From: Shewanella sp. c952
Lineage (GTDB): Bacteria; Pseudomonadota; Gammaproteobacteria; Enterobacterales; Shewanellaceae
Length of the DNA stretch: 64,000 bases
Direction of reading: 5' to 3'
Assembly: GCF_019654975.1 (NCBI RefSeq)
Contig: NZ_BPEW01000002.1
Coordinates: 1-64,000, forward strand
In this document: positions 57,871-63,742 of the stretch, one piece after another
How the letters are laid out: each line of letters opens with the position of its first letter
How positions within the stretch are numbered: the first letter of the stretch is position 1
Position numbers and translations under genes: made by a program
Notes under the pieces: model-generated
Told to the model about the DNA's origin: nothing
The model's input: the letters and a program-made list of their open reading frames with translations, nothing else
Databases searched by the model: none

Positions 57871-58410
57871 TTAGAAAGTTGCTCTACCACCTAGATAGAA
57901 GCCTGAGTCAAATGTAGTATTGGCTGCATCATCATATTGAAAACGAATATTTCTATAACCAACAAAAAGCGCTAATGAAGGGTTTAGCTGGTATTGAACC
58001 TTGCCATCAACCTGCCAAGAACCATCAACATCACCAAACGACAGTACTGAAGGTGAGTAATAACCTGAGCCATGCACAGAAACGTTTGAACCTAAGTGCA
58101 TTGCGTATCGCCCGCCGATGCCTACCGCATTACCATTTTGACTGTTCTTAGACCAAAGCTGAGAAAACTTCGCCCCAATCTCAATATGGTGCACTCCAGC
58201 ATCATGAGCTATGTGCATAGCACCTGATAGCATCTGACCGCCTTTATCAGAGTAGATATACTCTACAGACGCATTGACATCCTTATTCAAGTCTACCTGT
58301 ATATCAGTAAGCAAGGTGTCATCATTAAGCCCTAAGGTAAAATCTGTTGCCTGAGCTGAAACACTAGCCAAACTCAATACTGCAGCACCCACTAAAAGTT
58401 TTATTTTCAT
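57871..58410 (-). CDS. YfaZ-like outer membrane protein
   Basis: A 179-residue protein with a signal peptide (about 1-21, SAQA|TDF). The mature chain is a series of beta strands with a terminal aromatic residue (GGRATF), as in small outer membrane barrels. The amino end FTLGLNDDTLLTDIQVDLN resembles YfaZ. It is probably an eight-stranded barrel of unknown function. Such proteins are typical sigma-E sRNA targets in general, but that link here is speculative. Confidence 0.75.
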   Translation of the reverse strand: MKIKLLVGAAVLSLASVSAQATDFTLGLNDDTLLTDIQVDLNKDVNASVEYIYSDKGGQMLSGAMHIAHDAGVHHIEIGAKFSQLWSKNSQNGNAVGIGGRYAMHLGSNVSVHGSGYYSPSVLSFGDVDGSWQVDGKVQYQLNPSLALFVGYRNIRFQYDDAANTTFDSGFYLGGRATF

Positions 58411-59911: not shown

Positions 59912-59935
59912 GAAAAGCAAGGCTTTGTAGCCCTG

Positions 59936-59960
59936 TTACTTAGGTTACTTAGGTTACTTA
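59936..59960. repeat. 10-bp tandem repeat, about 2.5 copies
   Basis: TTACTTAGGT repeats head to tail immediately after the DUF4382 gene. Confidence 0.7.
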
Positions 59961-59963
59961 GCG

Positions 59964-60108: not shown

Positions 60109-60591
60109 ATGCCATCATCAATTTATGATTTTTCAGTTGCAAACATTCAAGGTCAATCTACCGCTTTAAAAGACTACCAAGGAAAAGTGGTTCTTATTGT
60201 AAATACAGCGAGTGAGTGTGGCTTTACTCCGCAATATAAAGAGCTCGAAGCACTCTATAAAAAATACCAATCCCAAGGCTTAGTCATACTAGGCTTTCCT
60301 TGCAACCAATTTGGTGCTCAAGAAAAAGGCGATAGTGCAGCCATCAGTTCATTTTGCGAACTCAACTTTGGGGTTACTTTTCCACTTTTTGAAAAAATAG
60401 AGGTAAACGGCGCTGCAACGACACCGCTTTACCAATATTTAAAAACAGAAGCAAAAGGCTTACTTGGCTCTGAACGGATCAAGTGGAACTTCACCAAGTT
60501 TCTAATTAACAAGCAGGGGAAAGTAGAGAAACGCTTTGCGCCGGCAACGAAACCAATGGCGATAGAGAAAAACATCTTAGAATTATTGTAA
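60109..60591 (+). CDS. btuE: Glutathione peroxidase (BtuE type)
   Basis: A 160-residue thiol peroxidase. The start is set at ATG 60109, with AGGAG seven bases upstream; a longer upstream frame is not supported. The catalytic Cys is C37 in VNTASECGFTPQY, with conserved GFPCNQFGAQE and WNFTKFLINKQG. It reduces H2O2 and lipid peroxides using glutathione or thioredoxin. No signal peptide is present, so it is cytoplasmic. The length matches E. coli BtuE (183) loosely, being shorter at the C-terminus. Confidence 0.88.
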   Translation: MPSSIYDFSVANIQGQSTALKDYQGKVVLIVNTASECGFTPQYKELEALYKKYQSQGLVILGFPCNQFGAQEKGDSAAISSFCELNFGVTFPLFEKIEVNGAATTPLYQYLKTEAKGLLGSERIKWNFTKFLINKQGKVEKRFAPATKPMAIEKNILELL

Positions 60592-60660
60592 TTTTTATAG
60601 TTTAAAAACAATGAATTAAAAATATAATTAAAAAAACCACAATTAATCTGTCTATTTTTT

Positions 60661-60687
60661 GAACTTTAACTGATTTTACCTCTCTAA
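60661..60687 (+). promoter_or_regulatory. Sigma-E-like promoter of unit 0
   Basis: GAACTT (60661-60666), a 16-base spacer, then TCTAA (60683-60687) give the spacing and words of RpoE promoters such as rpoH P3. It precedes a short non-coding unit ending in a terminator. Confidence 0.6.
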
Positions 60688-60692
60688 CTTTT

Positions 60693-60802
60693 TGAGCATT
60701 GAATATTTACTTCATGTTCATCATTCTCCCTGGGACTTCTAGCGCGGTCCCCTTGATCTCTAAGTAGGTCAGTCAGGCAACCCATTGGGTTGCCCTTTTT
60801 TT
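60693..60802 (+). ncRNA. Candidate sigma-E-dependent sRNA, unit 0
   Basis: A transcript of about 110 bases is inferred from a sigma-E-like promoter and a terminator (GGCAACCCATTGGGTTGCC, T7). Its internal hairpin is GGGAC/GTCCC. It shares TTCATCATTC..CCCTGGGAC-like sequence with the three downstream copies, and probably belongs to the same sRNA family. The transcription start is approximate, and no known sRNA family is recognised. Confidence 0.5.
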
Positions 60803-60860
60803 CCTCAATGACTCTCCAAATGACATAAACCTGAAGTGAATAGAAAAATCTCTCTTTCAG

Positions 60861-60888
60861 GGAACTAAAACGAATTACAGCACTCTGA
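60861..60888 (+). promoter_or_regulatory. Sigma-E-like promoter, copy 1
   Basis: GGAACTA (60861-60867), 16 bases, TCTGA (60884-60888). Copies 2 and 3 carry the same word pair at the same spacing. Confidence 0.6.
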
Positions 60889-60893
60889 CTATA

Positions 60894-61110
60894 TGAACCG
60901 ATTCTCGTTAAGTGAATTTCATCAGTTGGCTTAACTCTTATTCTCTTTGCTCATCACTCAGAGTGTATATAGTTTCATTGTTCATCATCATTCCCTTGGG
61001 CACTCCTGTTGAGGTTTGCCATTGGAGTTAACCGTTACGCTAGCGCACTAACTGTGTTAACTCTTGAAAACTTATGTTTATGGCAACCTATTTAGGTTGC
61101 CATTTTTTTT
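60894..61110 (+). ncRNA. Candidate sigma-E-dependent sRNA, copy 1
   Basis: From the promoter to the terminator (TGGCAACCTATTTAGGTTGCCA, T8; 61081-61110) this gives about 215 bases. Nested inverted repeats lie upstream in the unit: CACTCTGA/TCAGAGTG (60881-60888/60958-60965) enclosing GTTAAG/CTTAAC (60907-60912/60930-60935). A second hairpin, GAGTTAAC/GTTAACTC, lies near 61025-61065. CATTCCCTTGGGCACTCC between them is unpaired and could base-pair with ribosome sites. A start nearer 60975 (TATAGT box) is an alternative. Confidence 0.55.
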
Positions 61111-61251
61111 GGCTAACAATCACCGCAAAACATCCTCAAACAAATCTTGGTTTAATCGCAAAATTCAATGCATTAATAAACGGATAATCACCAGTAAGTG
61201 AGCTAAAAATCAAACCAAATGAAATAAAAACGAAAAAAGTGAGGAGTAATT

Positions 61252-61279
61252 GGAACTAAAGCGAAATTAGGCACTCTGA
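61252..61279 (+). promoter_or_regulatory. Sigma-E-like promoter, copy 2
   Basis: GGAACTA, 16 bases, TCTGA (61275-61279), the same arrangement as in copy 1. Confidence 0.6.
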
Positions 61280-61284
61280 CTATA

Positions 61285-61501
61285 TGAACCGATTCTCGTT
61301 AAGTGAATTTCATCAATTGGCTTAACTCTTATTCTCTTTGCTCATCACTCAGAGTGTATATAGTTTCATTGTTCATCATCATTCCCTTGGGCACTCCTGT
61401 TGAGGTTTGCCATTGGAGTTAACCGTTACGCTAGCGCACTAACTGTGTTAACTCTTGAAAACTTATGTTTATGGCAACCTATTTAGGTTGCCATTTTTTT
61501 T
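61285..61501 (+). ncRNA. Candidate sigma-E-dependent sRNA, copy 2
   Basis: Second tandem copy, ending at the terminator 61472-61501. The stems and the putative seed CATTCCCTTGGGCACTCC are unchanged from copy 1. Few differences are seen in the transcribed part, one of them ATCAATTGGC for ATCAGTTGGC. Confidence 0.55.
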
Positions 61502-61642
61502 GGCTAACAATCACCGCAAAATATCCTCAAACAAATCTTGGTTTAATCGCAAAATTCAATGCATTAATAAACGGATAATCACCAGTAAGTGAGCTAAAAA
61601 TCAAACCAAATGAAATAAAAACTAAAAAAGTGAGCAATAATT

Positions 61643-61670
61643 GGAACTAAAACGAAATTAGGCACTCTGA
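61643..61670 (+). promoter_or_regulatory. Sigma-E-like promoter, copy 3
   Basis: GGAACTA, 16 bases, TCTGA (61666-61670). Confidence 0.6.
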
Positions 61671-61675
61671 CTATA

Positions 61676-61892
61676 TGAACCGATTCTCGTTAAGTGAATT
61701 TCATCAATTGGCTTAACTCTTACTCTCTTTGCTCATCACTCAGAGTGTATATAGTTTCATTGTTCATCATCATTCCCTTGGGCACTCCTGTTGAGGTTTG
61801 CCATTGGAGTTAACCGTTACGCTAGCGCACTAACCGTGTTAACTCTTGAAAACTTATGTTTATGGCAACCTATTTAGGTTGCCATTTTTTTT
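61676..61892 (+). ncRNA. Candidate sigma-E-dependent sRNA, copy 3
   Basis: Third tandem copy, ending at the terminator 61863-61892, five bases before the stop of the opposite-strand aminopeptidase. One change, TAACCGTG for TAACTGTG, falls within the loop region of the GAGTTAAC hairpin and extends its pairing. Confidence 0.55.
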
Positions 61893-61897
61893 GGCTA

Positions 61898-63742
61898 TTA
61901 AACAACAGCCTTAAGTTGAGCGTCTAACATCACCACTATCGATGGGTGGTAACCCTCTCGCGCCAAGGCATAGATGTTTTTGATCTGGCCATCAAAACCA
62001 GCTTTTAGTAGTTCAGCATAAAGTGGCTTAACAAATTTACCTCGGCCAATTTTTACTAAATAATCACTCACAGCAGGTAATACATCGCTGTAACCATTAC
62101 GAATTGCCACTTTATACCAATCACAGGCTATTTCGGCATTGGTTGATACTGTGAGTGAAAATGCAGCGTCAAGTGCTTTAAGCTGATCATGGCTTACTAC
62201 CTCTGGTAGGTTGGTCAGGAAGTACTGCCAGTGATGCACTAACCAGCCTGTAGTATTCAGGTCGGCAGCAGCAGCATGACCCGCTTCAAATGCTGACAGA
62301 GCTTCAGTGACCTTATCTAAACTATTTGATGTTGGCGCGATAAACCACTCAGGCATACCTTCACCATAGATCCAGCCCAATAGCTCAACCTCAGTAATCA
62401 ATTCACTATGTTCGACAAGCAATGTCTTTTTAGCGTACTCAACAAAAGTCTCTGTTGTTATCGCTTCAAAAGCGAATGCTTGTACATATTGGTAGAGGAA
62501 TTTATCAAAAGCAACTCGCCCTAAGCGCTTTTCAAGGTCATGAACAAACATCGAAGCCTTGTCATAGGTGAAGCGGTTAAAGGCTTCATTTGGGTCTTGA
62601 GTTTGCATATTGGCAGGCAAAGTTTGCGCGTGTAATTCAGTTGACTCGATCGCTTCCTTTAAACGGCCATATTCCAGCACCACTTCAAGCTCGGCTAACT
62701 CTTTACCGAACACCTTTTCAACAATGCGGTTAGTAAAGTAAGTCGTGAAGCCTTCGTTTAACCATAAATCGCGCCAAGTCGCGTTACTGACAAGATTGCC
62801 AGTCCAGGAATGCGCTAGTTCATGGGCAACAGTCGAGACTAAGCTCTTATCTCCAGCGATTAGCGTGGGAGTCATAAAGGCTAATCTTGGGTTTTCCATG
62901 CCACCAAATGGGAAGCTCGGTGGCAATACGATCATGTCATAGCGTCCCCAAGGGTATGGACCCAATAAAGATTCAGCCACTTCAACCATACTTTCAGTAT
63001 CTTCAAACTCGGCAACGGCAGACTCAACAACCTCAGGTTCCGCATAGACACCTGTACGCGCACCCAATCGCCCAAAGGCTAAATCGCCAACGGCTATAGC
63101 GAGTAAGTGTGTCGGCATGGCTTTTTCCATGGTGAAGCTAAAGCGGCCATCGAGTGCTGCAGTGGCATCATTCATGGCGCTCATCACTGCTCGCATCCCT
63201 TTAGGTGCATTAATCACGGCATCGAAAGTTATTCTCGCTTTTGGGGTATCTTGCAGCGGGATCCAGCTACGTGCATTGATGGGTTGCGATTGACTGAACA
63301 AAAAGGGGAGTTTCTTGCCACTGGTTTGAGCGGGGGTTAACCACTGTAACCCTTGCGCTTCAGGCGTAGTGGCATAGTGTATTTTCACGCTGCTAACTGA
63401 AGAATCTAATTTGATACATAAGCGTTGGCCTAAGATTTCATCTTCTTTATCAATCGCGTACTCTAAGGCTTGATCGGCTGTTGTCGTCACATTAAAAATC
63501 GTGATATCACGTAGATCCAACATCAACTCACTGGTATTGTCATCTAAGTAATTAAGATTTAGCTCCACCTGCCCGGTTAACTGTTTTGCAGCAAAGTCCA
63601 CATCTAACATCAATGATAAATGTTTAACACACACTTGCTCTGTATTGGCGAATGAATGGTAGTCACGGCTGTTATCCCATTGCTCTAACACGGCATATCC
63701 TTTTTTAGTCACTGAACTTTTTAGGGGTATTTTAGCCAACAT
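61898..63742 (-). CDS. M1-family aminopeptidase (leukotriene A4 hydrolase-like)
   Basis: A 614-residue zinc metallopeptidase removing N-terminal residues from peptides. The substrate-binding FPFGGMENPRLAF and the zinc motif HELAHSW with its third ligand Glu in WLNEGF, separated by 18 residues, are complete. A C-terminal helical LTA4-hydrolase-type domain follows (about 460-614). It resembles the cold-active aminopeptidases of marine bacteria. No signal peptide is present, so it is cytoplasmic. The last codons come five bases from the terminator of sRNA copy 3 on the other strand. Confidence 0.92.
   Translation of the reverse strand: MLAKIPLKSSVTKKGYAVLEQWDNSRDYHSFANTEQVCVKHLSLMLDVDFAAKQLTGQVELNLNYLDDNTSELMLDLRDITIFNVTTTADQALEYAIDKEDEILGQRLCIKLDSSVSSVKIHYATTPEAQGLQWLTPAQTSGKKLPFLFSQSQPINARSWIPLQDTPKARITFDAVINAPKGMRAVMSAMNDATAALDGRFSFTMEKAMPTHLLAIAVGDLAFGRLGARTGVYAEPEVVESAVAEFEDTESMVEVAESLLGPYPWGRYDMIVLPPSFPFGGMENPRLAFMTPTLIAGDKSLVSTVAHELAHSWTGNLVSNATWRDLWLNEGFTTYFTNRIVEKVFGKELAELEVVLEYGRLKEAIESTELHAQTLPANMQTQDPNEAFNRFTYDKASMFVHDLEKRLGRVAFDKFLYQYVQAFAFEAITTETFVEYAKKTLLVEHSELITEVELLGWIYGEGMPEWFIAPTSNSLDKVTEALSAFEAGHAAAADLNTTGWLVHHWQYFLTNLPEVVSHDQLKALDAAFSLTVSTNAEIACDWYKVAIRNGYSDVLPAVSDYLVKIGRGKFVKPLYAELLKAGFDGQIKNIYALAREGYHPSIVVMLDAQLKAVV

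Follow-up and report, generated by a model that had tools for sequence, protein, structure and literature searches.

Shewanella is a main model for extracellular electron transfer. Among envelope-stress and multi-copy small RNAs (sRNAs) of other bacteria, MicA and RybB of enterobacteria carry their seeds at the 5' end, VrrA is known as a single gene, Qrr sRNAs occur as several similar copies per genome under sigma-54 promoters, and LhrC sRNAs act on ribosome sites through UCCC motifs. E. coli MicA presumably contains a UUAUCAUCAUCCC-like stretch. The array described here is like MicA and RybB in its sigma-E-type promoters, Rho-independent terminators and presumed repression of outer-membrane protein mRNAs, but differs from them in its internal putative seed and its tandem, multi-copy form. 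With VrrA it shares a sigma-E-type promoter and a likely outer-membrane role, while its sigma-E-type promoters set it apart from Qrr. VrrA of Vibrio is described as sigma-E dependent and as repressing ompA (PMC2628432). A multi-copy envelope-stress sRNA is already known elsewhere, since LhrC1-5 of Listeria are described as multi-copy, induced by cell-envelope stress and linked to the LisRK two-component system (PMC4132741). Here LhrC is compared by description only, as a functional analogue sharing multiple copies and envelope stress with the array; unlike the array, it is a Gram-positive family linked to LisRK.

According to a 2009 paper, micA and rybB are not found in S. oneidensis, though the porin Omp35 seems to be post-transcriptionally regulated (PMC2659441). 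The RpoE consensus reported for S. oneidensis MR-1, GAACTT-16/17-TC..., has the same form as the array promoters; in that study primer extension located the rpoE promoter, the regulon table consists mostly of predictions, and no sRNA appears in it (PMC4336711). S. oneidensis RyhB is reported to lower mtrA/mtrC and other cytochrome transcripts in a study that leaves further mtrC regulators unidentified and whose main text makes no mention of RpoE (PMC5826389). RyhB is Fur-controlled and iron-related, unlike the array. The main texts of two MR-1 sigma-E papers do not mention sRNA, nor does the main text of a WP3 sRNA screen mention RpoE or sigma. Among the matches listed in a search of open-access literature no paper dealt with sigma-E sRNAs in Shewanella; an unlabelled transcript of the family may already stand in some RNA-seq table.

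Layout and promoters of the array

The array comprises four consecutive units on the plus strand (60661-61892) of the window, the whole 64-kb stretch of DNA that was analysed, and lies between a glutathione peroxidase gene and an M1-type aminopeptidase gene (Table 1). Unit 1 is about 110 nt long and units 2-4 about 217 nt each, with 5' ends deduced from the promoters. Units 2-4 are tandem repeats of period 391 (98% matches by TRF). An earlier reading of the DNA from its letters, the sequence-only reading, had called them exact 391-bp repeats, which they are not: copies 1 and 2 agree at 381/391 positions, 2 and 3 at 252/255, and 1 and 3 at 248/255. Two further observations concern the neighbourhood. 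A YfaZ-family outer-membrane protein gene (57871-58410) lies about 2.3 kb upstream, and a gene with a similar N-terminus is also close to the array in another genome (G085); the 9-mer GTTACTTAG occurs in three exact copies at 59935-59961, directly after a DUF4382 protein gene.

The sigma-E-like promoters with a 16-base spacer proposed by the same reading were confirmed. The pattern GAACTW-N16-TCTRA occurs exactly four times in the window, once before each unit, against 0.14 expected, and four matches were reached in none of 100 shuffles. The proposed terminators stood as well, every unit (4/4) closing with its own GGCAACC...GGTTGCC stem followed by a T-run. Judged at the sequence level as sigma-E-dependent sRNAs, the units have a sigma-E-type promoter directly upstream, a Rho-independent terminator, no ORF and a conserved structure, and the promoters point to sigma-E dependence.

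No Rfam 15 family reached its gathering threshold in the window, and only sub-threshold matches were found in the array at E up to 10. At that cut-off the stretch 60591-61897 gave 20 matches, MicA and RybB not among them. For VrrA and Qrr the scores of 17.9 bits (RF01456) and 18.6 bits (RF00378), respectively, fall far below the gathering score of 50.

Table 1. Features of the array and its flanking genes (window coordinates; z, fold z-score)
Feature	Coordinates	Strand	Remarks
Glutathione peroxidase (GSHPx), upstream, same strand as array	60109..60591	+	Pfam PF00255
Sigma-E-type promoter, unit 1 (class A)	60661..60687	+	GAACTT-N16-TCTAA
Class A sRNA (predicted)	60693..60802	+	5' end deduced from promoter; R1 match 60693-60801, 120.5 bits (unit is one of the 38 sequences that built R1); z -3.16
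Putative seed of class A	60716..60730	+	GTTCATCATTCTCCC
Class A hairpin	60732..60751	+	loop word CTAGCGC at 60739-60745; stem covaries
Terminator, unit 1	60776..60802	+
Sigma-E-type promoter, class B copy 1	60862..60888	+
Class B sRNA copy 1 (predicted)	60894..61110	+	5' end deduced from promoter; R2 match 60972-61110, 127.6 bits (copy itself used in building R2); z -3.89
Putative seed, class B copy 1	60980..60995	+	GTTCATCATCATTCCC
Terminator, class B copy 1	61080..61110	+
Sigma-E-type promoter, class B copy 2	61253..61279	+
Class B sRNA copy 2 (predicted)	61285..61501	+	R2 match 61363-61501
Putative seed, class B copy 2	61371..61386	+
Terminator, class B copy 2	61471..61501	+
Sigma-E-type promoter, class B copy 3	61644..61670	+
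Class B sRNA copy 3 (predicted)	61676..61892	+	R2 match 61754-61892
Putative seed, class B copy 3	61762..61777	+
Terminator, class B copy 3	61862..61892	+
M1 / leukotriene-A4-hydrolase-type aminopeptidase, convergent to array	61898..63742	-

A predicted three-class family in Shewanella

On comparison of genomes, the array is part of a larger predicted family of Shewanella sRNAs with three classes, undescribed in the literature found. Class A is represented by unit 1 of the window, class B by the tandem units, and class C by a further unit that lies beyond the aminopeptidase gene in G085. We take G085 to be S. oneidensis MR-1; all three classes are present in it. When one repeat was searched as DNA against 60 relatives, 24 had matches at E<=0.001; many of these matches were short, and several relatives showed tandem arrays. 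A word of unit 1 was found in 46 stretches of the genome collection, all titled Shewanella. A caller that looks for TTCATCAT and then a terminator returned 132 units, four from the window and the rest from 42 of the 46 stretches (four gave no unit); two units were without a promoter call. Class B copies number from zero to six per stretch, with at least two in 19 of the 42, although some stretches are truncated. In several lineages the copies group by species, which suggests that arrays have repeatedly expanded or been homogenised.

Covariance models were built from 38 class A (R1), 69 class B (R2) and 17 class C (R3) sequences. In the covariance search of Shewanella genomes, which the sequence-only reading had proposed, R1 matched 117 of 117. 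In a sample of the order R1 was found in 30/30 Shewanella genomes and 0/3 of a sister genus of the same family, and there was no credible match among 364 genomes of the order outside Shewanella, the sister genus included. One weak match (G286) was rejected as an sRNA, as it lies inside a long ORF on the opposite strand and is without the seed word. R2 matched 84 of 117 Shewanella genomes at E<=1e-5, some cross-matches included, and R3 matched 112 of 117, partly by cross-matching class A and B units; in the order sample R3 was confined to Shewanella (25 of 345 genomes). At E<=1e-4 R3 finds only the three class B copies in the genome of the window, and the 4.1 kb beyond the window end are without the seed word, so that no class C unit was seen in that genome. 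Because the array is conserved across the genus, a chance origin is excluded.

The layout varies among species. S. corallii (L049) has three tandem class A units and one class C unit, with no class B in the stretch examined. In some species class C forms tandem arrays apart from class A, with three or four copies listed (L131 / G035:C1:3217211-3218333; G034:C22, G020:C1, G008:C7, G076:C2); the four copies of G035 are 341 bp apart and about 38 kb from class A.

Promoter geometry is kept across these units. When spacers of 10-22 bases were allowed, the 132 units, which had been collected by seed word and terminator, showed a strict match with a 16-base spacer in 115 cases, a 17-base spacer in four and other lengths in none; 13 were without a strict match. 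Among 126 spacers of 16 bases there are 111 different sequences. Twenty-eight class A loci found by the covariance model, those that pass a strict context search, all have a promoter under a slightly looser pattern, with a spacer of 16 bases in 26 and 17 in two. The terminators were observed in the window; across species, a terminator was required by the unit caller.

In class A, 97.7% of pairs are kept, and the covariation score is 0.296 against 0.180 in shuffles (reached in 0/500), slid versions of the structure scoring at most 0.074. Two of five covariation measures were not above shuffles, namely pairs changed on both sides (46/500) and further pair types (374/500). The predicted family is marked by units with their own promoter and terminator, by covarying stems, by variable tandem copy number and by restriction to the genus in the genomes sampled. 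That these are tandem sigma-E-type sRNA genes, as had been proposed, is strongly supported by the promoters, the covarying stems and the occurrence in every Shewanella genome searched. A separate element, CUAGCGC (window positions 60739, 61040, 61431 and 61822), is invariant in the aligned class A (38) and class B (69) sequences, although in class A it is part of the search word used to find the loci. It occupies the loop of the class A hairpin, and in the class B copies of the window it lies inside the self-complementary CGCUAGCG, which could allow RNA-RNA kissing.

The putative seed and its candidate targets

The four window units have in common the word GTTCATCAT..CCC (starts as in Table 1). 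A shared word had been predicted near CATTCCCTTGGGCACTCC; the word is indeed common to the four units, but lies just 5' of that position. Common to all classes is UUCAUCAU with a C-rich run after it, the shared word being (G)UUCAUCAU(CAU)U(C)UCCC. All aligned class A and C units and nearly all class B units have GTTCATCAT and the C-rich run, a conservation that is partly by construction, since the units were collected by TTCATCAT. Invariance of GUUCAUCAU was set aside as partly circular for the same reason, and its leading G is not always kept in model-found loci. Of the 30 class A loci of the order sample found by R1 (28 by the strict context search, two by a looser one), every one retains UUCAUCAU, as a seed would be expected to, and 27 retain the preceding G (25 of the 28 strict loci and both looser ones). 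Consensus structures of classes A and C leave the word unpaired. When single sequences are folded, its first part can pair with the 5' end (UGAGCAU or AUGAAC), and GUUCAU is partly covered in the predicted folds. AGGGA...AUGAUGAUGAAC, the complement of the seed, resembles a Shine-Dalgarno site plus start codons.

Evidence on targets is only suggestive of trans-acting pairing with mRNAs of exported proteins. A search of the window's genome with GTTCATCATCATTCCCTT at up to three mismatches gave 18 places against two for the reversed control. Three of the 18 are the array, and six of the other 15 are antisense and in register over start codons of genes whose products have exported-like starts. 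Two porin-like paralogues near FAD-reductase genes, presumably those named IfcO, have 15 and 17 contiguous complementary bases over the start; neither matched a Pfam or NCBIfam family, and a PDB search with one of them gave no match. The same genome has two clusters of a porin-like protein, a tetraheme-type small protein and an FAD-dependent reductase (L313, G000:C57). The six genes with near-matches over their starts also include that of a DmsE-family decaheme cytochrome and an OmcA/MtrC-type protein (198.7 bits, just below the family cut-off). A Porin_4 gene lies 6.4 kb beyond the array. In 24 of 30 genomes its start carries AUGAUGAAC. Elsewhere it commonly lies no more than about 10 kb from a class A or C unit, but the distance from class A is 50-100 kb in G003, G010 and G020.

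A start motif recurs in outer-membrane cytochrome genes. The word is in the start region of 16 of 30 OmcA/MtrC-family loci, compared with 12 of 259 exported genes sampled evenly from MR-1, and the pattern GCAGGGA-N2-8-AUGAUGAA occurs in 105 of 117 Shewanella genomes (exactly twice in 74), a control pattern giving 0. Its places in G000, G085 and G009 are mtrC- and omcA-type genes, family TIGR03507 having been tested for two of them and the gene names being our assumption. The sister genus, in which R1 gave 0/3, has AUGAUGAA or a one-base shift of it in 10 of 18 OmcA/MtrC-family loci and GCAGGGA in four of the 18, second pieces of one gene being counted among the 18. The motif is therefore not explained by this sRNA alone, and the argument that it is specific to genomes bearing the sRNA falls away, although that genus may have a diverged sRNA. 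In the MR-1 locus mtrA, mtrB and mtrF are without the core complement of the seed. So is a MKKTLISASV-type porin, although 11 contiguous bases elsewhere in its start region match MR-1 seeds.

Pairing was also examined genome-wide. When 1331 start regions of MR-1 were ranked by plain duplex energy, exported genes were not favoured: they made up five of the first 20 and 26 of the first 108 places, the background being 19.5%. Contiguous pairing of at least nine bases in MR-1 was found for 23 of 259 exported and 16 of 1072 other genes, and none of 100 shuffled seeds reached more than 17 exported genes. An equal preference for exported genes (7/71 against 5/270; p=0.70) is seen in two genera of the order that do not have the sRNA (G043 and G048), which removes the co-evolution argument for the genome-wide signal. 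The 8-mer AUGAUGAA did not decide the matter when taken alone, since the control word ATGAAAAA, a word of ordinary signal-peptide starts, is as enriched in exported genes (20 of 30 for AUGAUGAA, 12 of 17 for the control). The conserved 5' end pointed to no target, giving the three array copies and one place with three mismatches, against eight places for the reversed control.

The reading preferred here, to which we assign a probability of about 0.72, is that the array is a cluster of RpoE-transcribed, non-coding, trans-acting sRNAs that mask the start sites of envelope-protein mRNAs. Envelope stress would free RpoE, and all copies would fire together, the copy number of the array setting the sRNA dose. 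The word UUCAUCAU...UCCC, partly covered by the RNA's own 5' end until displaced by a target, would pair with mRNAs whose Shine-Dalgarno site and AUGAUGAA(C) start region are complementary to it, and translation would be blocked. Favoured targets would be exported envelope proteins, namely the porin encoded near the array, the two porin-like proteins and outer-membrane decaheme cytochromes such as MtrC and OmcA. RpoE dependence, action in trans, repression, targets and use of Hfq are what we infer. The parts differ in strength: that the family consists of sigma-E-transcribed sRNAs is very probable, that it represses envelope proteins is fairly probable (repression of the outer membrane by the array sRNAs is plausible), and that MtrC and OmcA are real targets is rather doubtful.

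A broader proposal is that the seed recognises the mRNAs of secreted proteins as a class, so that one sigma-E family, dosed by tandem copy number, could damp envelope cargo, the MtrC/OmcA conduit included. Its complement is the consensus start of signal-peptide genes, a Shine-Dalgarno site plus AUGAUGAA (in class A also AUGAAAAA), and an equal exported-gene preference in unrelated genomes is what a generic seed would be expected to give. This proposal is tentative and, on balance, unlikely. To about the same degree unlikely is the strongest rival of the preferred reading, in which sigma-E sRNAs act otherwise, on a few non-cytochrome mRNAs (for example only the porin), through CUAGCGC, or by titrating a protein or another RNA, the complementarity to start regions being incidental. 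Such complementarity to exported genes is a generic property of a word of this kind, the cytochrome start motif persists in the sister genus where the sRNA was not detected, and CTAGCGC is invariant in both aligned classes; against this rival stand the retention of UUCAUCAU in every model-found class A locus and the long contiguous pairing over the starts of the two porin-like genes.

Other explanations and biological meaning

A reading of the repeats as noise from recent amplification, or as a REP-like repetitive element that is dead or not transcribed, is very improbable. The window copies do look recent, being near-identical (97-98% alike), copies cluster by species, and the genome taken as MR-1 has an IS4/5-type transposase gene interposed between its class A and class B units (L127:8568-9326). 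Dead repeats with unconserved promoters, however, are not what was found: promoter elements are kept while their spacers diverge, stems covary, and class A is present in every Shewanella genome sampled. Between class B copies 1 and 2, moreover, the RNA part diverges less (1/217) than the promoter stretch (5/33) and the spacer (4/141).

Still less probable is the suggestion that the units encode small proteins, and the earlier statement that no ORF fits held up. An ATG at the class A seed opens a 17-codon frame in the window, and class B has closed ORFs of up to 52 codons. Across species, however, class A keeps neither start codon nor frame: the codon at the seed position is ATG in 24 of 39 units, TTG in eight, GTG in three and another in four, and 11 of 38 aligned sequences are frame-shifted by the loss of one base within the word. 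The longest closed ORF scatters from 3 to 52 codons in class B and from 1 to 34 in class C (0 to 52 over all classes). Equally improbable is a role of the units as leaders or attenuators of an adjacent gene, for although a promoter plus a terminator can be an attenuator, each unit has its own terminator and the next gene downstream, that of the aminopeptidase, is convergent, so that the array is not its leader.

Shewanella's missing sigma-E RNA arm has a good candidate in this locus, whose form, with up to six tandem copies and two sister classes, is unreported in the literature found. The array also offers a natural copy-number series for sRNA dosage. If the predicted cytochrome targets hold, envelope stress would be coupled to metal and electrode respiration, and if the class-wide reading of the seed is true, envelope stress would throttle extracellular electron transfer. 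The family may be the missing switch that turns down outer-envelope proteins in these metal-breathing bacteria.
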